From Candidatus Deianiraea vastatrix (GTDB lineage: Bacteria; Pseudomonadota; Alphaproteobacteria; Rickettsiales; Deianiraeaceae), in contig NZ_CP029077.1 of assembly GCF_007993655.1 (NCBI RefSeq), forward strand, positions 174,413-238,412: a stretch of DNA of 64,000 nucleotides, read 5' to 3'. Below, one piece after another: positions 17,500 through 50,371 of the stretch. Position 1 is the stretch's first letter; each line of letters begins with the position of its first letter. The notes below the pieces were generated by a model. The model searched no databases. It was not told where the DNA came from and worked only from the letters and a program-made list of their open reading frames with translations. A program made the translations under genes and the position numbers.

Positions 17500-17574
17500 T
17501 CCTCGGTAGCTCAGCGGTAGAGCAGTTGGCTGTTAACCAATTGGTCGTTGGTTCGATCCCAACCCGGGGAGCCA
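17500..17574 (+). tRNA. tRNA-Asn (anticodon GUU), island integration site
   Basis: Acceptor TCCTCGG (17500-17506) pairs with CCGGGGA; discriminator G and encoded CCA end at 17574. The anticodon loop CTGTTAA gives GTT. D-arm and T-arm (GGTTCGATCCC) are canonical. The 3' part from 17533 is also read on the minus strand as the C-terminus of the recombinase gene of element 1, marking this tRNA as the left junction of the island. Confidence 0.97.
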
Positions 17575-19083
17575 GTCATTACAGCCAGCATTTTCAAGCA
17601 TCATATCAAACGGACAACGCAAGGAATAGCCTAGGGTTTTGCCCTTTAATTCGAGTTTCGAAAATACAAAATTTATAATTTCTCTCTTTTCACAATTTTT
17701 CGAAACTAGGAAAATATCATGCAGTCTTGAAGCCAGCTGAAACGCCGTAATTACTGCATTTTTAAAGTTTTTGTCTGCTGATTTATACATCGCTCTCTCC
17801 TTCTCTAGGTTTGATATGTTTTGCTCTATTTCTGCTTTTTTATTTGCAAAGATGGGCTGCGTTATACTCCCGTTTAAAAGTGCGTCAAGAAGTCTGTTTT
17901 GTTTTTGCTCTTCGGATTTAATTCTGCTTTCAATATCATTTAGCTTGATTTGATAATGCTCTTGTTCAAAGTCGTGCGTCTTTTTTAGGTTTTCGGTGAC
18001 AATTTCAAGCATTTCATTTGGGAATTTTATTTTCGCAAATACATTTGAAACTTCTGCTAAAATATCTTTTTCACGAACATAAACTTTCTTTTTAATGTCC
18101 TCGGGGTTTCTAACTATTAAATAGTTGTTAATATAGCCTCTATCGTCAAGTTTTTCGTCTGTCGTTGCAGTTCTGCCACTTGAAGCACAAGTGATTAGAC
18201 TTCTAAAGACAAAGTCTTTACCTTCTTTTGCAGTTTGTATGGCTTTATCTCTGTTATTTTCTTTACATCTTCCAGAATTTACCCTTTGACATTCGTCAAA
18301 AAGTTCTTTGGTTATAAGTTTATCGTATTTATGTGGATATAATTTATCTCCGTGCGACTTTACAAGCATTTCACCGTAATAAAAAGGGTCTTTAAGCATA
18401 TTCGATATAACATTCTTGGATAATGTTTGCGTGCTTCCTGCATAAAATGTATTTGTTAAATTATATTCCTTTGCGAATTTCTCAAGGTCTCCTAGTGAAT
18501 AGCTACCGAGTGAGTACATTTCAAACATCTTTTTGATTAGTGGTGCACGCACAGGGTCAAGAATTGTATTTTCTACTCCTGTAATGTTATCTTTTATTTT
18601 TAAATAACCAACTGGCAATCTTCTTATATTTTCTCCTTTTTCTAGTTTACTTTGTAAAACTGTTTTTACCCTCTTGCCTAGTTTTTTAATTTCATGCTTG
18701 GATAAAACTTGGTCAAGATGATATTTTATGTCATCAGAGTCTTGGTCGTATATTTCGTTATTTCTAGTAAAATGAACTACGATTTTACCTTCGTCTTTCA
18801 AATCATTAATAATTGCAAAAGCCGAATAATCTCTATGTAGCCTATCCGAGGCTTGGGTTATAATATGTATTTTCTCTTTTTGTTTTTCAATAAAGGTCAT
18901 CATTTCGTAAAATTTTGGTCTATTTGATGTCTTTGAACTTTCAACAACCTCAAATTCTCTAATTATCTCAAAATCGTGCTTTTTACAATATTCTCTATTG
19001 TTTTTTAATTGAGCTTCAATTGAGTGTCCTTCATTAGCTTGCTCTTGGCTTGAAACTCTCGCCCATATAATTGCTTTTTTCAT
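17533..19083 (-). CDS. Large serine recombinase of element 1
   Basis: The 516-residue site-specific recombinase is expected to integrate or excise element 1. Domains in order: resolvase catalytic domain (about 1-150) with ARVSS (nucleophile Ser11) and the SDRLHRD arginine motif; recombinase domain (about 165-270); degenerate zinc-ribbon region (about 290-340); coiled coil (about 370-430); C-terminal tail. The zinc ribbon keeps one Cys where the related recombinases at 30497 and 53616 have CxxC pairs. The last 12 residues (PGLGSNQRPIG) are encoded by the reverse strand of tRNA-Asn, so the original tail was replaced at integration. It starts 15 bp after the Rep-like gene. Confidence 0.93.
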   Translation of the reverse strand: MKKAIIWARVSSQEQANEGHSIEAQLKNNREYCKKHDFEIIREFEVVESSKTSNRPKFYEMMTFIEKQKEKIHIITQASDRLHRDYSAFAIINDLKDEGKIVVHFTRNNEIYDQDSDDIKYHLDQVLSKHEIKKLGKRVKTVLQSKLEKGENIRRLPVGYLKIKDNITGVENTILDPVRAPLIKKMFEMYSLGSYSLGDLEKFAKEYNLTNTFYAGSTQTLSKNVISNMLKDPFYYGEMLVKSHGDKLYPHKYDKLITKELFDECQRVNSGRCKENNRDKAIQTAKEGKDFVFRSLITCASSGRTATTDEKLDDRGYINNYLIVRNPEDIKKKVYVREKDILAEVSNVFAKIKFPNEMLEIVTENLKKTHDFEQEHYQIKLNDIESRIKSEEQKQNRLLDALLNGSITQPIFANKKAEIEQNISNLEKERAMYKSADKNFKNAVITAFQLASRLHDIFLVSKNCEKREIINFVFSKLELKGKTLGYSLRCPFDMMLENAGCNDWLPGLGSNQRPIG

Positions 19084-19098
19084 ATAAATAACAAATAA

Positions 19099-20247
19099 TT
19101 AACACATTTTAAAATCATCCTTAAGTCTTATCGGTTTGAAAGCCTCTATGGCGTTAAGAATTCTTGTAATTTCATGCTGAATGTCATCTGCATTTGTGTA
19201 TTCACATCCTTGCACATCGTTTATACGCTTGATTTCACCCTTGATTCTTGAAAGCTGACTTGAGCTTAACTGAAACCGATTTTTTAGGTAATCATAACCT
19301 TTTTCTTTTGTAATTCTCATAACTGATTCTAATGACATAACTTTATTAAAACTGGCTTTTGGAAACGCAGTTCTAATACGATTTATAATAAAAGAAGTAT
19401 CAGTATTGTCAAGGCGTAAAGTCCTTAAATTATCGTGTATTTTATCAGTAAATCCTTGTAAAATAGCCTTTGCAACGCCAGGTATAAATGCGTCTTGAAT
19501 CGTATCAATTTGAATATCTAAAGTCTTGAGTTTTTTGCGTTTTAATGAAACTTCATAACGAAGTATTTTAAGCCCGCTTTCCGCAACTTTTTTAATCAAA
19601 TTAGCTTGGCATTGATTGTCTTTTACAACTGTTCTACTTTCACTGTAATTGAGTGCCGTTTGAATTTCTGCAATCTTATCGTAAATAACAACATGGTACT
19701 TTTTTGTGAAAAATCTTATTGAATTGCCTTCAGTTTTGTAGTCTCTGTTTGTTTTGCCAATCCTAGAATCATATCCAATCTTGCTTATAAGCGTGATAAT
19801 ATCCCGTGGCTCTGTGTTAATGATTATGTTTTTGCTAAAATCTATCCTTGATAAATAAGCTTGTTTTAATACCTCAATATCCACCGCAACGCCCATATAC
19901 GCAAGCTTTTCTTGAAGTTTTAACATCACGGCGTCAAAGTTGCTATATTTTAATTCCTCAATGTTGTTTTCAAAAAAGATTTTAGACAGCGAACATTCAA
20001 TAATCATACAGCAAAAACTCTCATCATCGCCTTTAATCATTGGGTATGGAGTTCTTTTAAGCGTTATTCGTGGGAAATATCCTTTCTTTTTATCACTGCT
20101 CGTTGGGTTGTTTTTAGTGCTCTTCTCAGAGTTTCCATAAATTTGAAAATTGCACAGCTGTGCAACCAATTTTTCACCGCCAAATCTTACAAAATCTGTA
20201 ATTACAACCTTATAGACTGGAATTATTATCACTATTGTATCTATCAT
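19099..20247 (-). CDS. Phage/plasmid rolling-circle Rep-like protein (element 1)
   Basis: I chose the start MIDTIVIIIP at 20247 because the paralogue at 56077 starts MIDTIILMF; an ATG 9 bp upstream is possible. The 382 residues resemble phage/plasmid replication proteins of the gene II/X (CRI) type: an N-terminal beta-rich part, SRIDFSKNI near residue 150, IRFFTKKYHVVIYDKIAE near 185 and a basic RYEVSLKRKK segment. These proteins nick one strand to start rolling-circle replication. The family call is tentative because catalytic residues were not confirmed. It overlaps the SpoVG-like gene by 38 bp. The palindrome TTGCACAGCTGTGCAA lies inside its 5' part. Confidence 0.55.
   Translation of the reverse strand: MIDTIVIIIPVYKVVITDFVRFGGEKLVAQLCNFQIYGNSEKSTKNNPTSSDKKKGYFPRITLKRTPYPMIKGDDESFCCMIIECSLSKIFFENNIEELKYSNFDAVMLKLQEKLAYMGVAVDIEVLKQAYLSRIDFSKNIIINTEPRDIITLISKIGYDSRIGKTNRDYKTEGNSIRFFTKKYHVVIYDKIAEIQTALNYSESRTVVKDNQCQANLIKKVAESGLKILRYEVSLKRKKLKTLDIQIDTIQDAFIPGVAKAILQGFTDKIHDNLRTLRLDNTDTSFIINRIRTAFPKASFNKVMSLESVMRITKEKGYDYLKNRFQLSSSQLSRIKGEIKRINDVQGCEYTNADDIQHEITRILNAIEAFKPIRLKDDFKMC
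20150..20165. repeat. Palindrome TTGCACAGCTGTGCAA inside rep gene
   Basis: Perfect 16-bp palindrome with centre CAGCTG. The identical 16-mer recurs at 22290 and 30470, and its 12-bp core at 35232. Confidence 0.9.
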
Positions 20248-20539
20248 AACCTTCACAACTTTTATTAATCACACTTTTTAGTTTTGAGAAAATTGCCTCT
20301 TCAATAGCAATGCTTGTTTCCTTGTTTATCGGGTGAAATAAGCTAAAACCGTTCTTTTTTGGGTATAGTAATCGATAGCCTTCTGCATTCAATTTCTTGT
20401 AGATTGCTATTCCAAAGAGGTAAATATTGCCTTCAATTACGATATTTGCAAAGCCTATAAGTCCATTTTGAGGTTTTACAATCTCAATATTTATTTCCGT
20501 TACATAATCATTCATTTGACTCTTCATAAAAAATTTCAT
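20210..20539 (-). CDS. SpoVG-like protein (element 1)
   Basis: A 109-residue protein resembling SpoVG, a small site-specific DNA/RNA-binding protein first known from Bacillus sporulation and common on mobile elements. The core is INIEIVKPQNGLIGFANIVIEG, then YLFGIAIYKK, LLYPKK and FHPINKETSIAIEEAIFSKL, matching SpoVG's strand-turn-strand and HPINxETRxxIExAV ending. Alternative starts at 20527 or 20515 would remove a short lead-in. Its end overlaps the Rep-like gene and its start overlaps the 63-residue gene, so these three are translationally coupled. Two further copies occur at 33209 and 57137. Confidence 0.75.
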   Translation of the reverse strand: MKFFMKSQMNDYVTEINIEIVKPQNGLIGFANIVIEGNIYLFGIAIYKKLNAEGYRLLYPKKNGFSLFHPINKETSIAIEEAIFSKLKSVINKSCEGYDRYNSDNNSSL

Positions 20540-20699
20540 TACTTTTTTGTTTTTGAGTTTCTTGTTCGTTTTGAATGCGTCTTTCGATTTTATCGAGTAA
20601 TTGAAATAAGCCCATTATGTGTCCAGACGCAAGACTAGCCTTCTCTTGCGAGATGCAGTCTCTATCCAAGCTCACAATGTACTCAGTTAATTTACACAT
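20508..20699 (-). CDS. Small helical protein preceding SpoVG (element 1)
   Basis: A 63-residue charged, helical protein of unknown function. It overlaps the start of the SpoVG-like gene by about 30 bp. Equivalent small proteins stand in the same place at 33471 (68 residues) and 57417 (58 residues); all begin with a helix of about 35 residues and end in a polar, Gln/Asn/Lys/Glu-rich tail, although sequence identity is low. It is the first gene of the SpoVG-Rep-recombinase operon. Confidence 0.6.
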   Translation of the reverse strand: MCKLTEYIVSLDRDCISQEKASLASGHIMGLFQLLDKIERRIQNEQETQKQKSNEIFYEESNE

Positions 20700-20761
20700 T
20701 TTACACGAACAATTAATTCGTATAAAATATCATACACATTTTCTCTAATTGGAGCAGCCAA

Positions 20762-20786
20762 GCTAGTAAATTCATTTACTCAGCTA
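20762..20786. other. Hairpin between element-1 backbone genes
   Basis: AGTAAAT and ATTTACT pair around a 2-base turn (20766-20781), extended by AGCT on both sides with one bulge. It sits between the 20844 gene and the 63-residue gene, where transcript termination or processing could occur. Confidence 0.4.
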
Positions 20787-20843
20787 GCAGAGGAACATGA
20801 AAATAATCAGTATTTATGCGGGGTTTTGAGTTTTGTGAGTGCG

Positions 20844-21761
20844 TTATTTTTTTGCTTCTTTATCTATTGCAAGGCACCATTTGTAGATTTGTGATGTTTT
20901 ATCGTCGGAAAAATACTTCTTTGCTTCTTGTGAAACTAAAATCGTTCCATCAAGTGAGTATTCAATAGCAAATTGCCTTATTTTATCGTCGTTTTTTGCG
21001 TATGCGTTATTTAGTAGTTCTGAAATTTTATTCGCTCTTGCGTTAACCGTTATGCCTTTTACTTTTTCTTTATTAAAATAAAGTGGTTTTATAACTTCTA
21101 GCTTGACTATATTTGTTTTTTGATTTCTATTTTTGCCACCTTTGCCTTGAGTATTGCTGATAATTTCACGCCTTACCTTTTCTTTGAGTTGATTTTCTTG
21201 CTCAATACGCTTTTGCTCATTTTTTACTCTTTGTTCTTTTAAATCTTCCTTACGATAAACCTCATATAGCTCATAGTACTTTTTAAAACACTCAATTTGT
21301 GTTCTTATTTTTTGAAATTTAAACTCTTTTAAAAAAAACGAAACGCCTACTTCGTTATTAAATGTATCTTTAATCTTTTGTTGTTTTGATTTATCATTAA
21401 AAATAGAATACAGTTTCAGCAAATCATCATCGCTCATATTATTAATGCAATTCCAAAGGATAGTTTCAAAAACCTTGGCATTGATATGACTTTTTGTGTT
21501 GATTGTGTATTCGTCTTTTGTATTTTCATAATGAACTCCATATCTTGAGTTTGGACTATTCTCAAAACAGGCAAAGAAATTCAAAATAAGCTCAATGTTA
21601 TTATTACTAATGTCTAAATTTTTTATACTAAAACTAAACTGCGGAGCGGTTTTAAGGTCATCAATTGGTGCACTTTGGTGTTTTGAATAGACTAATCTTG
21701 AGTATTCTGTAAGCCTTAAATAAAGCTCATTAAAAACAATTTTTAAAGTTTTAACATTCAT
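20844..21761 (-). CDS. Element backbone protein with shared N-terminal domain (element 1)
   Basis: A 305-residue protein of unknown function. I chose ATG at 21761 because the equivalent gene at 33790 starts at the matching place; the frame stays open to 21824. The N-terminal 80 residues share SKHQ...APQF spacing with the gene at 57705 and a helix pattern with 33790. The middle (about 165-210) is a charged coiled coil rich in Glu, Lys and Gln, and the C-terminus is a compact basic domain. An ATG-TAA minimal frame (21776-21781 on the minus strand) lies 20 nt upstream of the start. It is the first gene downstream of the non-coding repeat region. Confidence 0.65.
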   Translation of the reverse strand: MNVKTLKIVFNELYLRLTEYSRLVYSKHQSAPIDDLKTAPQFSFSIKNLDISNNNIELILNFFACFENSPNSRYGVHYENTKDEYTINTKSHINAKVFETILWNCINNMSDDDLLKLYSIFNDKSKQQKIKDTFNNEVGVSFFLKEFKFQKIRTQIECFKKYYELYEVYRKEDLKEQRVKNEQKRIEQENQLKEKVRREIISNTQGKGGKNRNQKTNIVKLEVIKPLYFNKEKVKGITVNARANKISELLNNAYAKNDDKIRQFAIEYSLDGTILVSQEAKKYFSDDKTSQIYKWCLAIDKEAKK

Positions 21762-22012
21762 TAGATTAATCAAAATTACATCTTTTTTAAGTAAATTCTT
21801 AAACAAAAACTTCTTAAAATGCAAGTTTTGTGAGTAGAAATAAGACCTTAATTTCTATAGCAACACCATATTGAATGGTAGGAGTTGAGGCTTATCAATG
21901 CCTCATAAAGCCAGTATTTATAAGGGTTTTCAGTGATTTTAAAGTGTATATAAAAAGCGAAAGATAAATTGTCAACAAGACAAAATAGGCAAATCTCTAC
22001 TCTCAAATTATG

Positions 22013-22029
22013 GTCACTTTTGGTGTCCA
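22013..22029 (-). ncRNA. Conserved hairpin, copy A (candidate small-RNA element)
   Basis: Arms GGTCAC (22013-22018) and GTGTCC (22024-22029) with loop TTTTG pair at five of six positions. Identical flanks and loop occur at 34761, and again at 34954 with entirely different but complementary arms. It lies about 65 bp downstream of the minus-strand promoter-like unit ending at 22122. Confidence 0.45.
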
Positions 22030-22289
22030 ACTTTCTAAAATTCAAACACTGAAAACACTTATAAACACTAGTGTTTTGAGGTGTTTTTTATATTATACAA
22101 AAAGTGAAAATAAAATTGTCAAGCGTTCAAAATGGAGTTAATTTTATACTGTAGAGAGATAGAAAAACAAAAGACTAAAATAGACAAACTACATCACTAC
22201 ACTCCTCCTCTATATCCTCCTTATCTCTGCTCACAGGCGGCGGATTTTCTAGGTTTTTATTAGATTTTTTAGTTATACTGCATTAAAAC

Positions 22290-22305
22290 TTGCACAGCTG
22301 TGCAA
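22290..22305. repeat. Palindrome TTGCACAGCTGTGCAA in non-coding region
   Basis: Same 16-mer as at 20150 and 30470; the surrounding block is conserved with 35232. Confidence 0.9.
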
Positions 22306-22559
22306 AATAAGCTCTGGCTACAAAGGCAAGATACCTTAAAACTCAAAATCAAAGCCTGTGGATTATTCTTTTATACAAAAACATACAATTTCATAGTCAA
22401 TTAATTTTGACTCCTGTAAGTGCCTGTATTTTTGAAAATTGCTGTTATACAAAAAATTACTTTTTGATTGTCAATTCAAAAACCTTTGTTTTATGTGTTT
22501 TGAATTGGTTTTTTGACTGCAAAATCTTTGTGAAAATTAGAAAAATTGATTATATAAAA

Positions 22560-24344
22560 CTACACTTTTTGATTGTCAAAAAAGAAATCTTTATCTGGCC
22601 ATTCCTTTTTGAATTTTATCTCAAGTAGCTCATTCACTCTTTCTGTAATCAATGTTAATGAATATCCATTTTTTTCAATCTTGGATATAAATTCAGATGT
22701 CTCTTTGAAGTGCGAATTCACCTCTTTATATTTTTCTATTTTTACTTTTAACGGCTTATCTCCAACTTTATAATTCTGTTCGCTTGGAATTAGATTTCCA
22801 ATTGAATTTCTAATTGGATATATTTCCTCAAATTTGTAATTATCTTGTTCGCACCAGTTCAGTTTTTCGTTCTCATTGCTCCATTTTTCTTTCTGCGGGA
22901 AAATATGCTCAATTGTATATCCAGTCTCTTTGTTTATAGTTTTATTCCAAGTATTTGGGTTTCTTTTAATGCTTGTATTTGCGTTATCTATTCTTAAAAA
23001 GAAATAAAATATTTCCTTTGATTGTACAATTCCTTTGTAAAAGTTTTCTGATTTAAAATTATCTTCAACGCTTTTGTTTAATGGAAATGTTTGAAACAAG
23101 TTATCTTTAATACTTTGAAATATAGATTTTTTATTCTTTTTGCAATCTTTTAGTATTTTAATAACATTCACACCCATGCTTTTTAAGGCACCATCACGAG
23201 CTATTAAACTACGGAATATATACGACTCTAAAAATGACAAAGATTTAAGAATATTTTGCTCGCTCTCAGATTTACTTTGTAATAAAATTTCAAATAATAA
23301 CGGATATGTTGTTGTTTGACCAAGAAATGATAAATATTCAATTTTTTCAATTACTTTGGCATTATATCCAGCTACATTTACATCATTTGTTCCATTTGTT
23401 ATCACAGCATACATTCTTGCAAAATTCACAATATCAAAAATTATGTCTTTGACATTATTGTTCGTTATATCTTTATAAAAGTATTTGAAATTATCATATA
23501 TCGCAAGGTCGCTTACTGGCTTTGATATTTCTTCATCTTTGTATCTATTTAATCTATAAACTTTCATTGACGCCAAATTTCCAAGCTCATCAAAGGAAGA
23601 ACAAAATTTATAAGATAAATAGTGTTTGAAAAACTTATCCAATTCCTTGCCGTTATTGTCATTCACACATTTTTCAATTTCATTCCAGTGTGTCAAAACC
23701 TCAGTAACCATATTACCTTTGATTTTAATAAAAATGTAGTTTCTTATTAAATCACTTTCTCTAAGCTCAACACCAGTTGCGTTAAGACTTTCAAAAACTT
23801 TATGCTCGTCTTGATCGTCAAATAGCTCTATTACAACAAATCTCAAACTCTCTAATTTATTAAAAATATCATTTATGTTAGTATCTTTCTCTTTTAATTT
23901 TTCTTTAAAAAAGATATAGTTCTTATAGGCGTTCGTCTGTTTATCATTATCATCCAATTTACTACTTCTAATCAATCTATCTATCACGACTCTATTAACA
24001 TCACCGCCTTGCAACCTTGTAACTTTATTACTTTTATCGTCTGTGAATAAATATTTACTCTCTATCGCTTCCCTTAATATCACATCATTACAAACATCTC
24101 TTATTGCTAAAATTAAAAGCGTTGCTGTTGTTAATCTTTGTTGACCGTCTATTACATTATAACATTGATTTGATTGTAATTTAATAGCTATACTACCAGT
24201 AAAATGTTTAGAATCATTTTGAATATCTGTAAATAAAGTTTTACATTGTTCGTGTTCCCAATTGTAGTGCCTTTGATATAGCGGTATAACAAAACACTTA
24301 AATGAAGTAAATATATCATTAATTGTTTTTTGAGAATTGGTCAT
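22560..24344 (-). CDS. GmrSD-like DUF262/DUF1524 restriction protein
   Basis: The 594-residue protein belongs to the family of type IV, modification-dependent restriction enzymes such as GmrSD. The N-terminal DUF262 (ParB-like) domain shows IPLYQRHYNWE (about 18-28) and DGQQRLTTATLLIL (about 66-79), the DGQQR signature of the nucleotidase/NTP-sensing site. The C-terminal DUF1524 HNH-type nuclease carries EHIFPQKEKW near residue 485 and ending NSIGNLIPSEQNYKVGDK. Family members cut phage DNA carrying modified bases. It follows the HNH gene by 54 bp, in one minus-strand operon with a membrane protein at its head. Confidence 0.88.
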   Translation of the reverse strand: MTNSQKTINDIFTSFKCFVIPLYQRHYNWEHEQCKTLFTDIQNDSKHFTGSIAIKLQSNQCYNVIDGQQRLTTATLLILAIRDVCNDVILREAIESKYLFTDDKSNKVTRLQGGDVNRVVIDRLIRSSKLDDNDKQTNAYKNYIFFKEKLKEKDTNINDIFNKLESLRFVVIELFDDQDEHKVFESLNATGVELRESDLIRNYIFIKIKGNMVTEVLTHWNEIEKCVNDNNGKELDKFFKHYLSYKFCSSFDELGNLASMKVYRLNRYKDEEISKPVSDLAIYDNFKYFYKDITNNNVKDIIFDIVNFARMYAVITNGTNDVNVAGYNAKVIEKIEYLSFLGQTTTYPLLFEILLQSKSESEQNILKSLSFLESYIFRSLIARDGALKSMGVNVIKILKDCKKNKKSIFQSIKDNLFQTFPLNKSVEDNFKSENFYKGIVQSKEIFYFFLRIDNANTSIKRNPNTWNKTINKETGYTIEHIFPQKEKWSNENEKLNWCEQDNYKFEEIYPIRNSIGNLIPSEQNYKVGDKPLKVKIEKYKEVNSHFKETSEFISKIEKNGYSLTLITERVNELLEIKFKKEWPDKDFFFDNQKV

Positions 24345-24398
24345 ATTTTAGTTTCAAACATTTTCAATAATCATAAAATAGATAAAATTAATTTTCAA

Positions 24399-24851
24399 TC
24401 AATAGACAACTTTAATCCCCTCTGGAATTAACCTGCAATTCTTAATAATATCCGCAATATCTTCGCCGTGTTTCGTTCTCAATTCACCCGCTAAGTCTAT
24501 TTTCTCGGATGACAACTTCATAAACCACTCATTTTGAGTTTTGCTATGTTTGTTTATCAATTCTTGCCACTCGTTCCACTTGCCTTTGAGTCTATTATGC
24601 AAGGCAAAATGGCATTGTTTGCATAAAATATAAGGCTTCCAAGGCTGGTAGTAATTTTCATTGTGGTAATTCGTCTCCATTGTAGTGCCACAAATCTCAC
24701 AAGGTTTGCCTACTGGATTTTCAACTAATTTTTGAGCAATTAAGAATTTTACTAACCTCCAACCGTTTATTCGCTCGATGCCTGTAAAACCGTTGTAGTC
24801 TCCAAGCATTTTCCACCTCCAGCTTGGCAATATAACTGTTTTTACTTGCAT
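24399..24851 (-). CDS. HNH-like zinc protein, copy 1
   Basis: A 150-residue protein with CEICG and, about 30 residues on, LCKQCHFALHNR, a two-CxxC zinc site followed by His as in small HNH nucleases. Upstream is an aromatic-rich part (LPSWRWKMLGDYNGFTG). Catalysis is inferred, not shown. It is closely related to the 154-residue protein at 35528 (long identical stretches such as GWRLVKFLIAQKLVENPVGK). It lies in an operon between a membrane protein and a DUF262 nuclease; in element 2 its paralogue follows an exported PLD nuclease. Confidence 0.65.
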   Translation of the reverse strand: MQVKTVILPSWRWKMLGDYNGFTGIERINGWRLVKFLIAQKLVENPVGKPCEICGTTMETNYHNENYYQPWKPYILCKQCHFALHNRLKGKWNEWQELINKHSKTQNEWFMKLSSEKIDLAGELRTKHGEDIADIIKNCRLIPEGIKVVY

Positions 24852-24865
24852 AGTTTTAGAAAATC

Positions 24866-25321
24866 TTATTCTTGCAAAATAAATAACTGCATATATATAA
24901 ATTTAGTTAGAAAATAAATTAGATATACAGATAAGATGCGATATGCGTTTATTAAAATAAAAAATATTAACCTAATAATTGTCGAAAGATTTGACAAACT
25001 TCTTCCGTGGCAGAAAATTTTCTGCATTGTTAATTCTAGTTTTGCAATTTTAATATAAATAAATGTATAGCAAATTCCATAACAAATTGAAAAAATGAAT
25101 AAAAATACCCAATATGCTATAAATTGCGAAATAAATGTTAAAAAAGAATTTGCTATTAATCTATATAGTGTGAAATTTTTAAAAAATACTAAATATATAT
25201 AAAATATAGTATACCAAAAACATATATTTTTAGAAATTTGAGGTGCAAAAAAGTTCCAAGATAATTTTTTGTCATTTAAGATTTCATTTAATTTTTGTTC
25301 GGAATTTATTTTATTTTTCAT
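24866..25321 (-). CDS. Small integral membrane protein divergent from XRE1
   Basis: The 151-residue protein has three or four hydrophobic helices (about residues 28-48, 58-90, 113-148) and no recognised family. A strong promoter, TTGACA (25375-25380 on the minus strand), 19 bp, TATAAT, ends 30 bp before the start. An ATG-TAG minimal frame (25334-25339, minus strand) is 18 nt upstream of the real ATG and only about 4-6 nt from the predicted transcript start. It heads the operon with the HNH and DUF262 genes. Confidence 0.6.
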   Translation of the reverse strand: MKNKINSEQKLNEILNDKKLSWNFFAPQISKNICFWYTIFYIYLVFFKNFTLYRLIANSFLTFISQFIAYWVFLFIFSICYGICYTFIYIKIAKLELTMQKIFCHGRSLSNLSTIIRLIFFILINAYRILSVYLIYFLTKFIYMQLFILQE

Positions 25322-25349
25322 CTTTCAAACAAACTACATCTTTTCATAT

Positions 25350-25380
25350 ATTATATGAAGCATTAGTTCGTATTTGTCAA
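25350..25380 (-). promoter_or_regulatory. Promoter of the 25321 operon
   Basis: Minus-strand TTGACA and TATAAT, both perfect, separated by 19 bp rather than the usual 17. The same spacing recurs in the non-coding regions. Confidence 0.65.
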
Positions 25381-25458
25381 GTTTTATTAATCGTGCCTTC
25401 GTGGTCTTTTAGGAGCAACTCGTATTCAATATTCGTAATATTAATTCGTTATAGAACT

Positions 25459-25800
25459 ATGAATGCGAATACAATTAAGAAAAAACAACTTGGCAACAAG
25501 ATAAAAGAATGGCGTAAACAAAGAAACATTACTCAAGAAGATTTTGCAGGTAAAATTGAAAGGTCAACTGAAGCTGTGTCTATGATTGAGCGAGGAATTA
25601 ACTTTCCAAGCCCAGACACAGTTGCAAAGATGAGTGTGGTTTTAGGTATTCCAATTCATGAGTTTTACAAATACGGAGACGAAGCAAAAGCATCTGCTAA
25701 AACTCAAAAACTAATTGATGAAATCACTGGCAGACTTTATAAAATGGATGAGAAGTATCTCAAAATAATGCTTAAAGTTGCGGATGGCTTGATTGAGTAG
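25459..25800 (+). CDS. XRE-family regulator 1
   Basis: A 113-residue regulator with an N-terminal Cro/CI-type helix-turn-helix (about residues 9-64): IKEWRKQRNITQEDFAGKIERSTEAVSMIERG. The C-terminal 45 residues are a helical dimerisation-like tail. ATG at 25459 is chosen over upstream in-frame codons because it starts just before the domain. It diverges from the 25321 operon, sharing an intergenic region with TTCGTA-type repeats (ATTCGTAATATTAATTCG, about 25435-25450) likely to be its operator. Its 3' end overlaps the convergent 211-residue gene by 29 bp. Confidence 0.88.
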   Translation: MNANTIKKKQLGNKIKEWRKQRNITQEDFAGKIERSTEAVSMIERGINFPSPDTVAKMSVVLGIPIHEFYKYGDEAKASAKTQKLIDEITGRLYKMDEKYLKIMLKVADGLIE

Positions 25801-26407
25801 TATTCATGTCTTGACCCTCAAACCAACCTAAAAAACGAATTGCATTCACGACATTTTTCTTTAAGGTCCAAGTCCATTCTTGCGTTTTGTTCTTGAATTG
25901 TTTGTGAGTATCGTCACACAAAACAAAAGTCCAAACTGGTTTATCATTGATTTTTTGAGTAGGTTCAAATCCTATCTGCTCACCCACCATTTTTGCAAAT
26001 TTACCATAATGCAAGTTGATTATTTCGTATTTTTCAAGCTCAGTATCTTTGGCGAGTTCTGTTGGTGTTGCAATAAATTTGTTTGACTCGTAATGTGCTT
26101 TTAGGATTTGTTTATAAACTGGTGTGATTTTCTCTTCTTGTTCTAAGCTATGTAATACTAAAATATACTCCCAAACTGTTGGTAAAACCTCTTTATCGCC
26201 AGGCTTTCTTGACTTATTTGCTTTTCTTATAATTTCTTGATTTGCACTTTTTAAAAGCTCATCAATAGACGAATTTACATCAATATCAAATAGCTTTGTA
26301 TTACTACTTATCTCGCCTACATAAATACCTTTATCAGCTCCGACGGCTGAAATTATGTATCTAGTTTTATCAAAAACTATGTTTTTATAATCTAAATTTT
26401 GAGACAT
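25772..26407 (-). CDS. Last gene of R-M operon, winged-helix-like protein
   Basis: A 211-residue protein of unknown function. A central segment (about 114-145), ATPTELAKDTELEKYEIINLHYGKFAKMVG, resembles a small DNA-binding motif often seen in HNH and restriction-associated proteins (T-x-x-LA ... NLxYGKLA). It follows the DUF3883 gene by 46 bp. An ATG-TAA minimal frame (26420-26425, minus strand) lies 18 nt upstream, with a promoter-like TTGATA-17-TACAAC before it, so this gene may also be transcribed on its own. A specificity or control role in restriction is plausible. Confidence 0.6.
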   Translation of the reverse strand: MSQNLDYKNIVFDKTRYIISAVGADKGIYVGEISSNTKLFDIDVNSSIDELLKSANQEIIRKANKSRKPGDKEVLPTVWEYILVLHSLEQEEKITPVYKQILKAHYESNKFIATPTELAKDTELEKYEIINLHYGKFAKMVGEQIGFEPTQKINDKPVWTFVLCDDTHKQFKNKTQEWTWTLKKNVVNAIRFLGWFEGQDMNTTQSSHPQL

Positions 26408-26453
26408 TTTTTAACAATATTACATCTTTGGATTTGTTGTAAAACACAAAATG

Positions 26454-27527
26454 TTATTTATCAAGAACTTGGTTAATTAACTTAATAGGTTTTTCATTAA
26501 ACTGAAATAAATTATTATTAGGACTAATGGCAAGCTTCAATTGCTGTAAATCCGTCTGCATCGATTGCACAATATTGTTTCTAAACAAATCTATCTTTGT
26601 TGACATTTGCGACATATAATCTTTAGAGTTATTGCATTCTCTAAATAAAATATTATCAGAGTCATTTAAGTTATATACTCTATATATATCGTAACAATAC
26701 TCTTGATTTTTATTTACAAATTCAATTTCCTGGCTACTGAAAATAATTTTCTGTTCAAAATCATAACTGGTTGACTTAACATCTATATAATGCACTTTAT
26801 CAAATTTATCCTGTAGATGAAAATCGTATGGCATACCACTTTCAATGCTTGCATTACACCATTTATAATGAGAAATCTGCTTACTGTGTAGTAATGTATC
26901 AAGATAGTTGTTTATCAACTCCTCTCCCTTTCTACCAATTTCTTTAAAGATTTTCTGAGCTCTTTCAATATCATATATTTTAAATTTTTGATTAATTGAG
27001 CCTATTTGAGAAGCAGTTTCAATTTCCTTTTGTATATGTATTGAGCTAATATTAACAATATTTTGTAAAAGATTCATAACATTACCCCATTCTCTCAATC
27101 TGCCGCTTTTTTTATCTTTTGGTAAAAATTTATATATCTCCGATTCAGAATCAAATAAGCAAAATACTGGCATATTATTAGAAAGACCAAACCATAACAA
27201 ATACCATTTTGTAACAGGATTAGCTTGACACTTATCGCGAATAACAGATGTCACGGATACAGAATTCCTACCTCCAGTTTTAATTTTCGGGCTTCTAAAT
27301 GTTCCATCTGGATTGGAGATTCTATCAAAATACATATCCAAAATATCAGCATTATTTTGAAATATAAAAATTGCTTGCTTTTCTTCTGTGTTATCTAAAA
27401 AAGTCAAAGTATCATCGTACAATCCAATATGCGTTTGATGACTCGTACCCAACCCCAAGTCTGCATTTGATAATTCCTTGTATGCAACTTTACTTTCGCT
27501 GTGAATTTCAAAAAACTGTATATCCAT
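26454..27527 (-). CDS. DUF3883-type restriction endonuclease
   Basis: The 357-residue protein is most likely the nuclease of the adjoining methyltransferases. The C-terminal half has the DUF3883 pattern: IGRKGEELINNYL (about 191-203), then YDFHLQ and VHYIDVKSTSYDF (about 235-255), forming a PD-(D/E)xK-type site with D...DVK, followed by FSSQEIEFVNKNQEYCYDIYRVYN. The N-terminal half (about 1-185) may bind DNA. It starts 3 bp after the stop of the first methyltransferase, so translation is coupled. Recognition sequence unknown. Confidence 0.75.
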   Translation of the reverse strand: MDIQFFEIHSESKVAYKELSNADLGLGTSHQTHIGLYDDTLTFLDNTEEKQAIFIFQNNADILDMYFDRISNPDGTFRSPKIKTGGRNSVSVTSVIRDKCQANPVTKWYLLWFGLSNNMPVFCLFDSESEIYKFLPKDKKSGRLREWGNVMNLLQNIVNISSIHIQKEIETASQIGSINQKFKIYDIERAQKIFKEIGRKGEELINNYLDTLLHSKQISHYKWCNASIESGMPYDFHLQDKFDKVHYIDVKSTSYDFEQKIIFSSQEIEFVNKNQEYCYDIYRVYNLNDSDNILFRECNNSKDYMSQMSTKIDLFRNNIVQSMQTDLQQLKLAISPNNNLFQFNEKPIKLINQVLDK

Positions 27528-27530
27528 ATA

Positions 27531-28586
27531 TTAATTCATAAATTTACTAACCAAATAATGTAATATTGCATAAACTGTATTTACACTTACTGCATTACCA
27601 GCTTGCCTATACATTTGATGATCGCTAATGCCAGCTTTCTTTGCGTTTAGGAAAAATTTATCATCAAAACCTTGTAAGTTAAAGGCTTCTTTTGGAGTTA
27701 GCTTTCTAATTTTTTTCTTCAATAAATCATCTATTTGTATATTAATTTCTTGAACATTGTTCTGAATAAAATCATCACTATAGTAATTATCTTGACATGC
27801 TCTGTGCATTTTTACCATAGTTGCAGTCAGTGGTCTCGCAATTTTAAGATTAATTTCTGATTTAGATTTAAAATTTTTAGTGCCATTGGACAATATTGTT
27901 GGTTTTATAACGTCTGATAAATAGTACTTATTATCTGTATTCTTTTCTAAAACATCAAAGATATCTTTTTGTTTTAGTAAATTTGAATTTGGAATGTTTT
28001 TATTACTATATTCAATAACAATATTTTCTGTGAATATAAAATCCTTATTTGGCTTGCCTTTAATTGCAAATATGAAAACTCTATTTCTTGTTTGAGCTAA
28101 ATTAAAATTTGCAGTATTGAATATATCGTAAAATACTGTATAATCTTCTAATGATATTAATTCAATAACTTTTTTCAGAGTTTGCTTTTTGTCATGATTT
28201 ACTAAATTTTTAACATTTTCAAGTAAAATCATTTTTGGCTTTTTAATTTTTATAATATCTATAATTTTAAAAAAAACATTACCTCTTGCATCAGTAAAAC
28301 CATTTTGAGCACCCATCATACTGAATGGCTGACATGGAAATCCGCCTGTTAATATATCAAAATCTTCCAAAGAACTTATGTTGTTAGGGTTGCTACAAAA
28401 ATCAACAATATCACCCATTGCAACATCTGCACTGGTATCAAAATTTGCATTGTATGTTGTTGTTGCATATTTATCAATTTCGGAAAATCCAATACATTTA
28501 GAATGCATTTTAAAGTCATTAGCCACTAAATCTAATGCCAAACGGAATCCACCTATACCAGAAAACAATTCTAAATGTTTAATCAT
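27531..28586 (-). CDS. DNA cytosine-C5 methyltransferase A
   Basis: The 351-residue enzyme transfers methyl from S-adenosylmethionine to C5 of cytosine. Motif I LELFSGIGGFRLAL (about 5-18), catalytic motif IV GGFPCQPFS (Cys near 84), motif VI ENVKNLVNHD (about 125-134), motif VIII QTRNRVFIFA, and motifs IX-X with QAGNAVSV near the C-terminus are all present, so it looks active. The target-recognition region is short. It overlaps methyltransferase B by 4 bp. Two C5 enzymes in one system usually serve the two strands of an asymmetric site. Confidence 0.93.
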   Translation of the reverse strand: MIKHLELFSGIGGFRLALDLVANDFKMHSKCIGFSEIDKYATTTYNANFDTSADVAMGDIVDFCSNPNNISSLEDFDILTGGFPCQPFSMMGAQNGFTDARGNVFFKIIDIIKIKKPKMILLENVKNLVNHDKKQTLKKVIELISLEDYTVFYDIFNTANFNLAQTRNRVFIFAIKGKPNKDFIFTENIVIEYSNKNIPNSNLLKQKDIFDVLEKNTDNKYYLSDVIKPTILSNGTKNFKSKSEINLKIARPLTATMVKMHRACQDNYYSDDFIQNNVQEINIQIDDLLKKKIRKLTPKEAFNLQGFDDKFFLNAKKAGISDHQMYRQAGNAVSVNTVYAILHYLVSKFMN

Positions 28587-29716
28587 ACTAAATATTTTAA
28601 AATTATACGACCTATTGCTTCAGATAACTTTACTGGAACCGCATTTCCAATTTGTCTATACCAATTATTTTGAGGCCCACAAAAAGAATAATCATCTGGA
28701 AATGTTTGAATTCTTGCAGCTTCGCGTGGAGATAATCCTCGAGGCTGCTCTGGATGTATATACATATTACAATCATATTGCATATGCGATGTAATCGTTC
28801 TTGATACTTCATTATATTTTAATTTATAGTATTTATCTTTAAATATATGAGCTCTTTCTTTATATGGCATAATATGCTGTATTGAATCATGTGTAGAATT
28901 ACAACCTTGTGGCAGAAGTTTATAAATTTCAATATCTCTATCATTATTAAATCTATTTTTATGATTATGTAGTTTTTGTATTGTTCTATTATTATTAATA
29001 TATCTCACAAATTCTGTTTGTTTATACTCAAATTCAATTTCCGTGAATCCAAACTTTTCATTCTCTATTGAATTATTATTTTTAATTTTCTTTGGATGCA
29101 GTAGTGGTAAATCACTTATTGCATCAAATAATAAAAATTGTTTATGTTTTTGCTGTTTTAATTCAATAAAAATTTTATTAGAATCGATATTAATACAATT
29201 GCCAATAATAAAAAGCCTTTCTCTGTTTTGTGGCACACCAAAGTCTTTAGCATTTAAAATCGCATAACTTATATTGTATCTTTTGTCAAGGTTAACATTA
29301 AAATCATCAAGAATTTCAGATATTTTGTTTTTCATACCCTTTACATTTTCCATTAGAAAAAATTTAGGTTTTGTGTGTTTAATAAAGGTAATATACTCTT
29401 TGTACAATATATTTCTTGGATCATCTATTATTCTTTGTTGGTTGGCAATAGAAAAACCTTGACATGGCGGACCACCAGTAACTAAATCAACTTGTTGAAA
29501 TTGTTTTAAATAAGATATATTTTGATTTAACACTCTAATATCGCCAATAAATAAATTATCTTTACTTAAGTTATTGTGATTTAATAAAATTGTTTGACTA
29601 GCTATTTTATCAATTTCATTGGCAAAAATCATATTAAAGCCAGCCTGTGTCAAACCAAGACTCAATCCTCCTGCACCAGCAAATAAATCAATAAAATTAT
29701 ATTTTTTAATATTCAT
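28583..29716 (-). CDS. DNA cytosine-C5 methyltransferase B
   Basis: The 377-residue C5 cytosine methyltransferase has motif I FIDLFAGAGGLSLGL (about 8-22), motif IV GGPPCQGFS (Cys near 83), ENVKGM (about 123-128), QNRERLFIIG (motif VIII) and QIGNAVPV near residue 360. All catalytic motifs are intact. It differs clearly from methyltransferase A, so the two are not a recent duplication. Its start codon overlaps the mazF stop by 4 bp (ATGA), placing it directly in the toxin-antitoxin transcript. Confidence 0.93.
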   Translation of the reverse strand: MNIKKYNFIDLFAGAGGLSLGLTQAGFNMIFANEIDKIASQTILLNHNNLSKDNLFIGDIRVLNQNISYLKQFQQVDLVTGGPPCQGFSIANQQRIIDDPRNILYKEYITFIKHTKPKFFLMENVKGMKNKISEILDDFNVNLDKRYNISYAILNAKDFGVPQNRERLFIIGNCINIDSNKIFIELKQQKHKQFLLFDAISDLPLLHPKKIKNNNSIENEKFGFTEIEFEYKQTEFVRYINNNRTIQKLHNHKNRFNNDRDIEIYKLLPQGCNSTHDSIQHIMPYKERAHIFKDKYYKLKYNEVSRTITSHMQYDCNMYIHPEQPRGLSPREAARIQTFPDDYSFCGPQNNWYRQIGNAVPVKLSEAIGRIILKYLV

Positions 29717-30045
29717 ACCTTCAGCAACACACTTAATAATTTCAATACTTCAAGCAGCTCTTCTTTTGAGGAAGTGCCTGCAAATTCAGCATTTCTTTCT
29801 TTCCAGTCTAGACTTTTTATTGCATCCGCAAGGGCAACACCTTGGATTTTGTCATTATTTATCTTAACCTCAAACGGATAACCTTTTGCCTTGCTTGTAA
29901 TAGGAACGGCAAGAATAAGCCCATGTTTATTGTATTCTTGTGGTGAAAGAACGAGTGCAGGCCGTCTCTTCATTATCTCTCTTCCTGCTTGTGGATTGAA
30001 ATCAAGCCAGATTAAATCGCCTTTGGATGGAATATACTTTTTCAT
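29713..30045 (-). CDS. mazF: MazF/PemK-family endoribonuclease toxin
   Basis: The 110-residue protein cleaves mRNA at short motifs when freed from its antitoxin. Family features are GDLIWLDFNPQAGREIMKRRPALVLS (about residues 8-33), with the RRPALV strand, then ILAVPITSKAKGYPFEV, the T/S and the C-terminal helix of the PemK fold. It starts 11 bp after mazE and its stop overlaps methyltransferase B, coupling toxin and methylase synthesis. Confidence 0.93.
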   Translation of the reverse strand: MKKYIPSKGDLIWLDFNPQAGREIMKRRPALVLSPQEYNKHGLILAVPITSKAKGYPFEVKINNDKIQGVALADAIKSLDWKERNAEFAGTSSKEELLEVLKLLSVLLKV

Positions 30046-30056
30046 ACCCTCTCAAA

Positions 30057-30344
30057 TCACCAAACCTCATGCCCAACCGCTTCGTCATCTATTGACTCAT
30101 CCTCATCACTTGAATGCTTATTTTTACTTGTGATTTTTGAAAGCAGAGTCATTAGATTCAAGTCTTGCGATAAATCAAAGAATGGATTACTTTCAGACTC
30201 TAGCATAATCTTATTACCATCTAATGAAATTTTGATTTGCGAGCCATCGTGTAATTTGAGTGCGTCGGCGACTTTCTTTGGAATACGAACACCAAGGCTA
30301 TTGCCCCAAGTTTTTACTTCTGTTGTTGAGATTGTTGTTTTCAT
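30057..30344 (-). CDS. mazE: MazE-like AbrB-fold antitoxin
   Basis: The 95-residue antitoxin has an N-terminal AbrB/MazE DNA-binding swapped-hairpin domain (about residues 8-48: VKTWGNSLGVRIPKKVADALKLHDGS) and an acidic C-terminal tail (DEDESIDDEAVGHEVW) of the type that blocks the MazF active site. It is first in a six-gene operon. A TTGACT-type promoter with palindrome AGTATATACT (30385-30394) within it fits autoregulation. An ATG-TGA minimal frame (30359-30364, minus strand) lies 20 nt upstream of the start. Confidence 0.92.
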   Translation of the reverse strand: MKTTISTTEVKTWGNSLGVRIPKKVADALKLHDGSQIKISLDGNKIMLESESNPFFDLSQDLNLMTLLSKITSKNKHSSDEDESIDDEAVGHEVW

Positions 30345-30378
30345 ACACTTTTAATTAATCACATCTTTAATGTAAGTT

Positions 30379-30404
30379 AATACAAGTATATACTAAAAGT
30401 CAAG
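30379..30404 (-). promoter_or_regulatory. mazE promoter/operator candidate
   Basis: Minus-strand TTGACT (30399-30404) and a weak TATTAA about 15 bp downstream enclose the perfect palindrome AGTATATACT (30385-30394), a likely MazE/MazEF operator. Confidence 0.4.
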
Positions 30405-30469
30405 ATATATTTTCTATTTTGAAGTCAGCTTAATCTTGGAACGACGCTTTGCTCTGTTTCAAGATAATT

Positions 30470-30485
30470 TTGCACAGCTGTGCAA
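30470..30485. repeat. Palindrome TTGCACAGCTGTGCAA at left end of element 2
   Basis: Third exact copy of the 16-mer, 11 bp beyond the stop of the element 2 recombinase, close to the presumed junction between elements 1 and 2. Confidence 0.9.
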
Positions 30486-30496
30486 CTTTGCTTTTT

Positions 30497-32104
30497 CTAC
30501 GCCGCTAAACATAGCTTCACTCCTTCCATCATCGGGCGGTTCATTGTAGACAAAATATCGTCTTGTTTGTTTCGAAATATGTTGAAAGAGGGGAGCCAAA
30601 TAGGTCTTTCACCACATTTTAGCACTTCATCAAAGGGTTTAACCACGGTAAATACTAGGGTTTTGCCACTTAGAAAAAAGTTCGAAAATAACAATTTCAA
30701 AATAGCCCTTTTCTTGTCTTGTTTCGAACTTTTAAATACTTCATAGGCACGAGAGGCAATATCTAGTATAGTTGACGCTGTAACTTCAAATTCTGCATCG
30801 TCGCTTTCAAGTAATTCAATTTCTTTTTTGATATTTTCTTTCTTTACCTCTAGTTCTGTTTTTAGTTCGATATAATCATCTTCGGGAATGTCTTTTGTAA
30901 CATATCTTTGATGTCTTAAGTCTTTTAGAGTGTTATCTATTTCTTGATATTGTGCGTGAAACTTAGCTAACTTTACTTTATGTTCTTTTGACTCTTTTTC
31001 AAGATTATCTTTTACAGAGTCTTTAATTGCTTGTAAATATTCCTCTGGAATTTGCATTGCTTTTAAACTGCTTGCTAACTGGTCAAGCAATATATGTTCG
31101 CCTACTTCAACGCAATGTTCGCATTCTCCTTGGCTTTTAGTTGGTTTTAAGTAGACATATTCTCTTTGGCCATATTTCTTTGTCATCTTTGGTCTTGCAT
31201 AAGAACTATAACTACAGCCACAATGCTGGCATTTTACCAATGCTTTGAATATAAAATCTTTGTCGGTTCTTTTGTATTTTGCCTTTTTTCTGCCAAATCT
31301 TACATCTTGACACTGGTCAAACAACTCTTTGGTTATTAATGGCTCGTAGACATGCTTGTAAAGCATTCCTTCCGCCTCCATATATCCATAATAGAATGGA
31401 TTTGTTAAGGTTCTTTCAATCTGGCTTTTAGACATCTTACAATTCTTTTTACTTCTAAGTCCAGCTTCTGTTATTAAGCTTCTTACTTCCGCCATAGAAT
31501 AATCACCAGTTGAATACATTTCAAAAAGTTGCTGTATTAATGGTCCTCTTATTGGGTCAATTTCAACTTCTGCTGGCTTTCTTTTTTCTTTTTTGGCTTG
31601 TATTCGCTTTTTGTTTAGATAACCAACTGGAGAATCTCCGCAAATCGTTCCTTCCTCAAGTTTTTTGTTTCTGCTTCGCTTTACATTATCGGATATTTTA
31701 TTTCTATAATCATTTGCAAGCAAGACATCAAGGTTCTTTCTAAACTTCTGCGAACTGTCCATATTTTTATGCTCAATAAAGCCATTTTGCGTGTAATGAA
31801 TTTCTGCTTTATCAAGTTTGATTAATTTTTGAAGCTCAACATATTGCTCGTCAAAATCACGCTGAAGCCTATCTACGCAATAGCAAATAATGGCAGTTTT
31901 GCTGCTTTGTTTTTTAACAAATTGCACCATTCGTGCAAACTCCGGTCTTCCATTTGCTGTTGAGCTTTCAACTATCTTGAATTGCTCAAGGACATTAAAG
32001 TCCTTTTCAATGGCATATTTAAAACCACTTTGAATTTGTGCATCAAGCGAGTGTCCATCTTCTTGGTCTTTGCTTGAAACTCTTGCGTAAACTACAGCTT
32101 TCAT
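30497..32104 (-). CDS. Large serine recombinase of element 2
   Basis: The 535-residue recombinase has a catalytic domain (about 1-150) with YARVSS (nucleophile Ser10) and the VDRLQRDFDEQ motif, a recombinase domain (about 155-265), a zinc ribbon with CQHCGCSY and, 30 residues on, CEHC (about 280-325), a coiled coil (about 345-430) and a C-terminal tail ending beyond WLPSF. Unlike the element 1 enzyme, the zinc ribbon and a longer tail are intact. It is the left-most gene of element 2, transcribed leftward. There is no Rep gene directly upstream; an unrelated 323-residue protein takes that place. Confidence 0.95.
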   Translation of the reverse strand: MKAVVYARVSSKDQEDGHSLDAQIQSGFKYAIEKDFNVLEQFKIVESSTANGRPEFARMVQFVKKQSSKTAIICYCVDRLQRDFDEQYVELQKLIKLDKAEIHYTQNGFIEHKNMDSSQKFRKNLDVLLANDYRNKISDNVKRSRNKKLEEGTICGDSPVGYLNKKRIQAKKEKRKPAEVEIDPIRGPLIQQLFEMYSTGDYSMAEVRSLITEAGLRSKKNCKMSKSQIERTLTNPFYYGYMEAEGMLYKHVYEPLITKELFDQCQDVRFGRKKAKYKRTDKDFIFKALVKCQHCGCSYSSYARPKMTKKYGQREYVYLKPTKSQGECEHCVEVGEHILLDQLASSLKAMQIPEEYLQAIKDSVKDNLEKESKEHKVKLAKFHAQYQEIDNTLKDLRHQRYVTKDIPEDDYIELKTELEVKKENIKKEIELLESDDAEFEVTASTILDIASRAYEVFKSSKQDKKRAILKLLFSNFFLSGKTLVFTVVKPFDEVLKCGERPIWLPSFNIFRNKQDDILSTMNRPMMEGVKLCLAA

Positions 32105-34970: not shown

Positions 34971-35231
34971 AACTTTCTAAAACTCAAACGCTGAAAAGCT
35001 AGTATTTATAAGGCTTTTCTGCCTGTTTTTTGTATTATACAAAAAGTGAAAATAAAATTGTCAACGAGGTAAAATCGTAATAATTTTAGATTATAGAAAA
35101 ATAGCAAAACAAAAAACCAAACATATTAACTACCTCACTATACTAAACCTCGATACCCTACTTATCTCTGCTCACGGGCGGCGGATTTTCTAAGTTTTGA
35201 TTAAAATTTGAGTTATACCGCATTAAAACCC

Positions 35232-35243
35232 GCACAGCTGTGC
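35232..35243. repeat. Palindrome core GCACAGCTGTGC (element 2 non-coding region)
   Basis: Twelve-base core shared with the 16-bp palindromes at 20150, 22290 and 30470, within a block conserved with 22290. Confidence 0.85.
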
Positions 35244-35527
35244 AAAATTTATCTGCCAACAAAGGCAAATCACCTTAAAACCAAAAATCAAAGCCTGTAG
35301 ATTGCTCTTTTATACAAAAACATACAATTTCATAGTCAATTAATTTTAACTCCTGTAAGTGCCTGTATTTTTGAAATTTTGTATTATACAAAAATGGAAG
35401 TTTTGATTGTCAATTGTAAAACCTTGATTTTATGTCTTTTGAATGCGTTTTTTAACTTTGAAATTTTGGTGAAATTCAAGAAAATTGATTATATAAAAAT
35501 GGAGTTTTTTCATTGTCAAAAGTTTTG

Positions 35528-44714: not shown

Positions 44715-44736
44715 ATTTTGAACACGTGTTCAAAAT
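44715..44736. repeat. Perfect 22-bp palindrome centred on ACACGTGT
   Basis: Core TTTTGAACACGTGTTCAAAA flanked by A and T. The same 20-mer is at 53595 and a variant is at 50347. It lies 21 bp after the C39-like gene stop and upstream of the type IIG promoter. Confidence 0.9.
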
Positions 44737-50364: not shown

Positions 50365-50371
50365 TTTTCTT

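Follow-up and report, generated by a model that had tools for sequence, protein, structure and literature searches.

Serine integrase genes that run into tRNA genes: a proposed attachment site within the integrase gene in a tandem array of Candidatus Deianiraea vastatrix

In the genome of Candidatus Deianiraea vastatrix, the gene of a serine recombinase ends inside a tRNA-Asn gene located on the opposite strand. Does this overlap mark the crossover site of an integrative element, and would integration then exchange the C-terminus of the recombinase itself? We considered these questions in a window of 64,000 nucleotides (genome positions 174413-238412 of a 1.2-Mb contig), which contains three of the five elements of a tandem array. 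The features at the tRNA-Asn gene are the following (window coordinates here and below, unless genome positions are given):

17500-17574, + strand: tRNA-Asn(GUU), the target gene, intact
17551-17555, + strand: T-loop GTTCG in tRNA-Asn, proposed zinc-ribbon motif of the B half-site, 21 nt before CCA
17572-17574, no strand: CCA, proposed crossover region and attL of element E1 (antisense TGG)
17575-17620, - strand: proposed P' half-site of E1, within the integrase (int) coding sequence
17533-19083, - strand: E1 large serine integrase (PF00239 + PF07508)

The original prediction that the E1 recombinase ends in residues encoded by the reverse strand of tRNA-Asn held. The integrase ORF (516 aa, with DWLPGLGSNQRPIG as the C-terminal residues before the stop) overlaps the tRNA 3' end by 42 nt in the antisense direction. 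Its codons at 17533-17571 are antisense tRNA-Asn and code for LPGLGSNQRPIG followed by the stop, while the Trp codon TGG (17572-17574) lies opposite the tRNA CCA. This Trp is invariant among the integrases. The antisense stubs that follow are not conserved; for example, one stub reads WLPGLGSNQRPIG, compared to WLPE in a 94% identical integrase.

The integrases of E1, E2 and E3 have the Resolvase N-terminal and Recombinase domains (PF00239 + PF07508), and Ser10 is invariant in the aligned integrases. A zinc ribbon (PF13408) is present in E3, and most of the ribbon cysteines have been lost from E1. Paired long helices at 351-396 and 404-458, a coiled-coil feature, were seen in an AlphaFold model made from a shallow alignment (pTM 0.34). 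The folded part of this model stops at the Trp, where the tail region described below begins, and from there on (residues 501-538) pLDDT is mostly below 50. The integrase profile matches the structure of the A118 integrase (PDB 4KIS) over the C-terminal DNA-binding region. The catalytic domains, the zinc ribbon or coiled coil and the 5-bp motif shift described below place the proteins among the large serine integrases.

A gene at 19099-20256 lies directly upstream of the E1 integrase, and a related gene (genome 257930-259384) is found one gene away from the integrase of the fifth element. Both are without a Pfam match and are candidates for an integrase partner or a directionality factor.

With three of the integrases as queries, we collected relatives from the order, the class, named genomes and phage contigs, and inspected 80 homologues. 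An antisense tRNA end was found in 62 of the 80; the first antisense triplet was TGG in all 62, giving an in-frame Trp in 54, with the reservation that these counts include related copies and that the rows are not all independent. The targeted tRNAs are of 13 isotypes (Asn, Ser, Gln, Arg, Glu, Pro, Gly, Leu, Asp, Ala, Thr, Met and Phe), and the counted set includes Legionella moravica and a plasmid of L. adelaidensis. The same overlap in so many relatives, with TGG first in each, is the reason why we do not attribute it to chance; among the inspected homologues, the tRNA overlap is the rule of this integrase group. The arrangement had been expected to be unusual. This stood in part only: the overlap is no oddity of the tRNA-Asn locus, and there are precedents in the Dehalococcoides tmRNA islands and in streptococcal rumA ICEs.

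Several observations were made on individual relatives. In one genome (G229, C1:473000-503000), integrases that are 98.6% identical (L260/L261) are situated about 27 kb apart and face outward, one running into tRNA-Ser(gga) and the other into tRNA-Asp(gtc); G170 has a comparable pair (L258/L259). Either the use of two tRNAs by one integrase or an inversion could have produced such outward-facing pairs. In the L. adelaidensis plasmid (L075, 4931-7497), a tyrosine integrase gene is positioned directly upstream of the serine integrase that overlaps a tRNA. One relative of the same family comes from a MAG that is Rickettsia typhi by its label alone.

The position of the crossover could be narrowed by comparing occupied sites. 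E1 is present in two genera (G000 and G008), with integrases that are 94% identical. At the right end of E1, the two copies have 3 differences in 75 bases up to the CCA and are followed, after the CCA, by different second integrases. The tRNA-Ser(gga) locus of one genus provides a second comparison: G124 has no integrase there, G129 has a 27-bp int remnant, G110, G145 and G180 have an integrase of type A, and G170 and G229 one of type B. All these sites are alike through the CCA and part immediately after it. We conclude from both sets of breakpoints that the crossover takes place in or at the edge of the CCA, which would narrow the core to this triplet, with CC or CA as the candidate dinucleotide. 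For tRNA-Arg in genus g60 no empty site was found.

The shared core is only about 7 bp long (GGAGCCA). The recombinase is of the serine type and no long tDNA repeat is present; the elements are thus distinct from the tRNA-targeting islands of tyrosine integrases. Of the region 17533-17620, which had been proposed to hold the core, the CCA is what we retain; the part at 17575-17620 is ordinary int coding sequence and would be the P' arm. The sequences on either side of tRNA-Asn show so little synteny within the order that the attB flank could not be defined at this locus. Neither an excision junction outside 17533-17620 nor an empty-site strain with the same sequence next to tRNA-Asn, the two findings that had been named as speaking against the prediction, was encountered among the integrated, integrase-free and phage-form sequences compared.

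The array itself consists of five same-strand integrases in tandem and one fragment, with the integrases at 191.9, 205.0, 228.1, 242.5 and 255.6 kb of the genome; E1 to E4 measure 13.0, 23.1, 14.4 and 13.1 kb. GGAGCCA occurs at the same codons in all five integrases, including the fourth and fifth, which are outside the window, and its antisense TGG CTC codes for W-L. The features of the second and third integrases and of the junctions are listed here.

17575-30598, no strand: element E1, 13,024 bp, integrase at left end; GmrSD and two C5 methyltransferases
30497-30595, - strand: native C-terminal tail from the E1 right end, LPSFNIFRNKQDDILSTMNRPMMEGVKLCLAA and stop, now fused to the E2 integrase
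30497-32104, - strand: E2 large serine integrase, tail E1-derived (PF00239 + PF07508)
30570-30574, + strand: putative P half-site motif at the E1 right end, zinc-ribbon-like TTTCG, with TTCG 25 nt before CCA
30596-30598, no strand: CCA core at the E1/E2 junction, within GGGGAGCCA at 30590-30598
30599-53729, no strand: element E2, 23,131 bp; cargo OLD/GajA-like, Type IIG RM and GmrSD
53616-53726, - strand: native tail from the E2 right end, ending in RTKSYAGVVNFARRVKTMNFDIDRLCAAT and stop, fused to the E3 integrase
53616-55232, - strand: E3 large serine integrase (PF00239 + PF07508 + zinc ribbon PF13408)
53701-53705, + strand: putative P half-site motif GTTCG at the E2 right end, 26 nt before CCA
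53727-53729, no strand: CCA core at the E2/E3 junction, within TGGAGCCA at 53722-53729

The three cores named by the original prediction were found where it had placed them, with GGGGAGCCA at 17566-17574 (E1) and 30590-30598 (E2) and TGGAGCCA at 53722-53729 (E3). Element E3 extends past the end of the window. Searches of the 257-300 kb interval of the genome for GGAGCCA and for the motif with a tail ORF gave no convincing site at which the array could end on the right, within 50 kb of the fifth element.

The cargo of the elements is mainly restriction and other defence genes. Genes of this type are located at 22560-24344, 27531-29716, 37918-39597, 41480-44632, 48442-50196 and 60964-62757 of the window and at genome 247911-251600; they comprise two GmrSD-like genes, two C5 methyltransferases, an OLD/GajA-like ATPase, a Type IIG RM, an AAA_13 protein and a Type I HsdM/S. 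A PemIK-like pair at the right end of E1 was called by eye from the translation. A truncated second serine recombinase (55279-56061; 42% identical to the E1 integrase) lies directly upstream of the E3 integrase, and a 73-bp unit at 46182-46327 is duplicated head to tail with 99% identity. Two families of palindromes recur inside the elements, TTGCACAGCTGTGCAA and TTTTGAACACGTGTTCAAAA, with members at 20143-20165, 22283-22305, 30463-30485 and 35223-35245, and at 44715-44735, 50345-50365 and 53594-53614. Two of them (30463 and 53594) are situated directly after the stop codons of integrase tails. The palindromes have the appearance of operator sites for HTH regulators encoded by the elements.

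Besides the breakpoints, the two kinds of half-site carry a motif at two different distances from the core. At native element ends, which represent the P side and were seen at tandem junctions and in phage contigs, a GTTCG or GTTCT motif starts 26 nt before the CCA. This was the case for the right ends of E2 and E3, for G009, G335, the L133 group and L209, and, as GTTTG, for L147; the TTCG of the motif is kept in position at the E1 right end, and the E4 motif is degenerate (GTTAG). The T-loop GTTCRA of the tRNAs starts 21 nt before the CCA. Other pairs of phage and prophage gave 23 versus 18 nt (L213/L212) and 24 versus 19 nt (L214/L217); all of these distances were counted by eye on printed sequences. 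As a background, four of the five motif letters at that spacing were present in 2% of the CCA sites of the island. For the Listeria (LI) integrase, it is established that the zinc-ribbon motif of attB lies closer to the core than that of attP, by 5 bp (PMC3783163). As far as the aligned half-sites indicate, the 5-bp shift is the one by which attP and attB of large serine integrases are known to differ, and the T-loop GTTCRA appears to act in attB as the stand-in for the GTTCG motif of attP. Nearly all tRNAs have this T-loop and the CCA, which would account for the many isotypes in use.

The opposite arm was less regular. A mirrored GAAC-like P' motif at +26 was seen, weakly, in 18 of 53 relatives. 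The inverted-repeat symmetry of the reconstructed attP had its best centres at +6.5 and +0.5, at about 2 sd. This arm is also under coding constraint, which partly confounds its weak symmetry, and both CC and CA are therefore kept as candidates for the core dinucleotide.

The overlap could in principle be a coincidence, or the array could be the product of another integrase or of homologous recombination at the tRNA. The excision circle was reconstructed from sequence alone and the right-most end of the array was not found, which leaves some room for such an origin. Still, 62 of 80 relatives have the overlap in the same register; this, the breakpoints at the CCA and the 5-bp motif shift speak against such an origin, and we give it almost no credence.

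If the crossover is at the CCA inside int, the integrase should have a different end in the excised form. In integrases located away from tRNAs, the frame usually runs about 30 codons past W-L into the right end of the neighbouring element. When the ends of each element were joined on paper, the int frame was open through the core for E1-E4; the tail at 30497-30595 would complete the E1 integrase in an E1 circle. The tails are 28-37 codons long, far above chance, as only 4% of the TGG starts in the island are followed by such frames. The int frame crosses the core into a conserved tail; therefore attP would split int, and integration would swap the tail for a tRNA stub. The swap was confirmed in sister integrases of phage form and integrated form, which differ past the core (L133/L206, L213/L212, L214/L217 and L147/L145). 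The original suggestion that the core lies within the int 3' end and that the C-terminus is exchanged on integration is thus supported by the CCA breakpoints, by the conserved native tails away from tRNAs, by these pairs and by the motif shift.

We observed that changes in the tail were mostly synonymous, with pooled pS of 0.33, pN of 0.11 and pN/pS of 0.32 (Fisher p 1e-6). The FRT/LEP residues of the tail were at first sight a case of protein conservation and were rejected as such, being the GTTCG DNA motif read in antisense. Selection on the tail was therefore tested only beyond the motif in the G000/G008 and G009 pairs, while the viral pairs include the motif. The ratio indicates that the native tail is under purifying selection.

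Tails ended in Ala in 14 of 16 groups (LAA, FAA, LVA, CA, SA and others), compared to 5-13% of background ORFs from the same DNA; the 16 groups include G063, which is probably not a native tail. Its 14-residue end (..FFAA), which has the motif at -21, looks like what is left of a decayed tRNA and was rejected as a tail. The E3 tail ends in CAAT, not in Ala. The C-terminus of the tail resembles a ssrA-type ClpXP tag, and a degron role is suggested by that resemblance. The host genome encodes clpX as well as a two-piece tmRNA of the alphaproteobacterial type.

Could the conserved tail be a by-product of constraint on the attP DNA, that is, on the P half-site and a nearby promoter or operator, with residues that have no role of their own? 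The antisense reading of FRT/LEP fits this, and so do the palindromic operators after the tail stops at 30463 and 53594. On the other side are conservation that continues past the half-site with pN/pS well below 1, tail lengths far above the 4% expectation, and Ala ends in unrelated groups; we find this explanation improbable. A simpler one still is trivial read-through, in which the integrase is complete at W-L and the downstream tRNA or tail is translated without consequence. The variable antisense stubs and the end of the folded model at the Trp would agree with it, but the purifying selection and the Ala ends of the tails would not, and we hold it to be quite improbable.

We propose instead, as a very probable mechanism, that attP lies inside int with crossover at the CCA and attB in the tRNA, and that integration replaces the tail by an antisense-tRNA stub. 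Sequence-level support comes from the architecture, the CCA junction, the 5-bp shift and the tail conservation. The attP would straddle the 3' part of each element's own large serine integrase gene, with the P' half-site in the int coding sequence and the P half-site at the far end of the element; in the circle, the P end would encode the last ~30 residues of the integrase. Crossover would take place at the 3' end of the target tRNA, in its CCA, whose antisense TGG is the codon of the invariant Trp. The attB half-site would be the acceptor and T-arm of the tRNA, with the T-loop GTTCRA 5 bp nearer the core than GTTCG is in attP; as the T-loop would replace the attP motif, many different tRNAs could serve. 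Recombination at the CCA would leave the tRNA whole, bring int next to the tRNA and move the tail coding sequence to the other end of the element. A newcomer at the tRNA would supply a new full tail to the element behind it.

What the tail does is a separate matter. That it is an ssrA-like Ala degron, making the circle-encoded integrase short-lived and the integrated form stable, has in our estimate close to an even chance, by analogy with known tags. Stable integrase could then accumulate while the element is integrated and carry out excision as soon as a directionality factor is present. After excision the degron-tailed integrase would be short-lived and re-insertion would therefore be disfavoured.

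The tail could act on activity rather than on stability: the tailed circle form would be competent and the stub form weak or dead, which would keep the element integrated, as in phage Mx8. PMC4701971 gives the Mx8 precedent, the authors of the dsiB work surmised that it might be the circle form which functions (PMC3146451), and the tail is conserved while the stubs of close relatives vary. The tails are of low confidence in the AlphaFold model, and what different groups share in them is limited to the stretch read from the DNA motif and to the final Ala. A degron would fit these properties more readily than a catalytic module would; we regard an effect on activity as rather unlikely. The fuller proposal, in which the group targets tRNAs generically through T-loop motif and CCA core and has an attP-in-int proteolytic latch whose tag is cut off by integration, is one that we advance tentatively, as somewhat short of an even bet.

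The group would be a diverse set of serine integrases at tRNA genes, contrary to the view of Islander 2014, where serine integrases were not known to target tRNA genes (PMC4383910). A rule of T-loop, CCA and 5-bp shift predicts attB and attP for each enzyme and could give genome-insertion tools aimed at tRNA genes, which are found in every cell. The tail swap would be a sequence-level case of a C-terminus that reports the integration state, and the degron idea is directly testable. The scheme would account for the stacking of defence islands in a small genome without damage to the tRNA; repeated insertion at attL is so far outside it.

Within a partial coverage of the literature, we found no publication on a tRNA-wide group, on the T-loop/CCA rule or on an Ala-tagged serine integrase tail removed by integration. 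The any-tRNA rule and the degron-like tail look new; att-spanning serine integrases are already known. A rare earlier case of tRNA targeting is Paracoccus phage vB_PamS_Pami6, with a serine recombinase predicted at tRNA-Met; it is a single case, and the accessible part of that paper describes neither overlap nor C-terminal swap (PMC6536676). The A118 and Listeria (LI) integrases are similar in the C-terminal profile match (PDB 4KIS) and in the motif being 5 bp nearer the core in attB (PMC3783163); in the present elements, it appears to be the tRNA T-loop that serves as the motif in attB.

The closest architecture is that of the ssrA islands of Dehalococcoides, in which the serine integrase DsiB is at the left end and its 3' end always overlaps attL (PMC3146451). 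There, too, the gene runs antisense into the 3' end of a structured RNA gene, islands occur in tandem, and the authors noted that the circle may restore a functional 3' end. The target is tmRNA (ssrA), compared to tRNA-Asn here, so that the array is not an ssrA island; the authors saw a divergent C-terminus, while a conserved tail, motif shift and degron are not described (PMC3146451), and we liken the systems by architecture, not by homology. In streptococcal rumA ICEs, according to the accessible portion of PMC4701971, rumA and the single serine integrase exchange 3' parts, the att site is inside the integrase gene, and integration alters the length and the C-terminus of the protein. The target there is a protein gene, no antisense tRNA stub is formed, and that portion notes no degron.

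In phage Mx8, as cited in parts of PMC4701971 and PMC4383910, attP is inside int and integration turns a 112-residue C-terminus into 13 residues, with lowered activity; the Mx8 enzyme is a tyrosine recombinase, of other chemistry. In the integration-dependent immunity of mycobacteriophages, attP is inside a gene, attB is at a tRNA, an ssrA-like -AA tag of the viral form is removed, and tandem insertions have been reported (PMC9262239, PMC9934374). The gene split in those phages is the repressor, the integrase being tagged but unsplit (PMC9262239, PMC9934374); here the split gene is int, that of the serine integrase.
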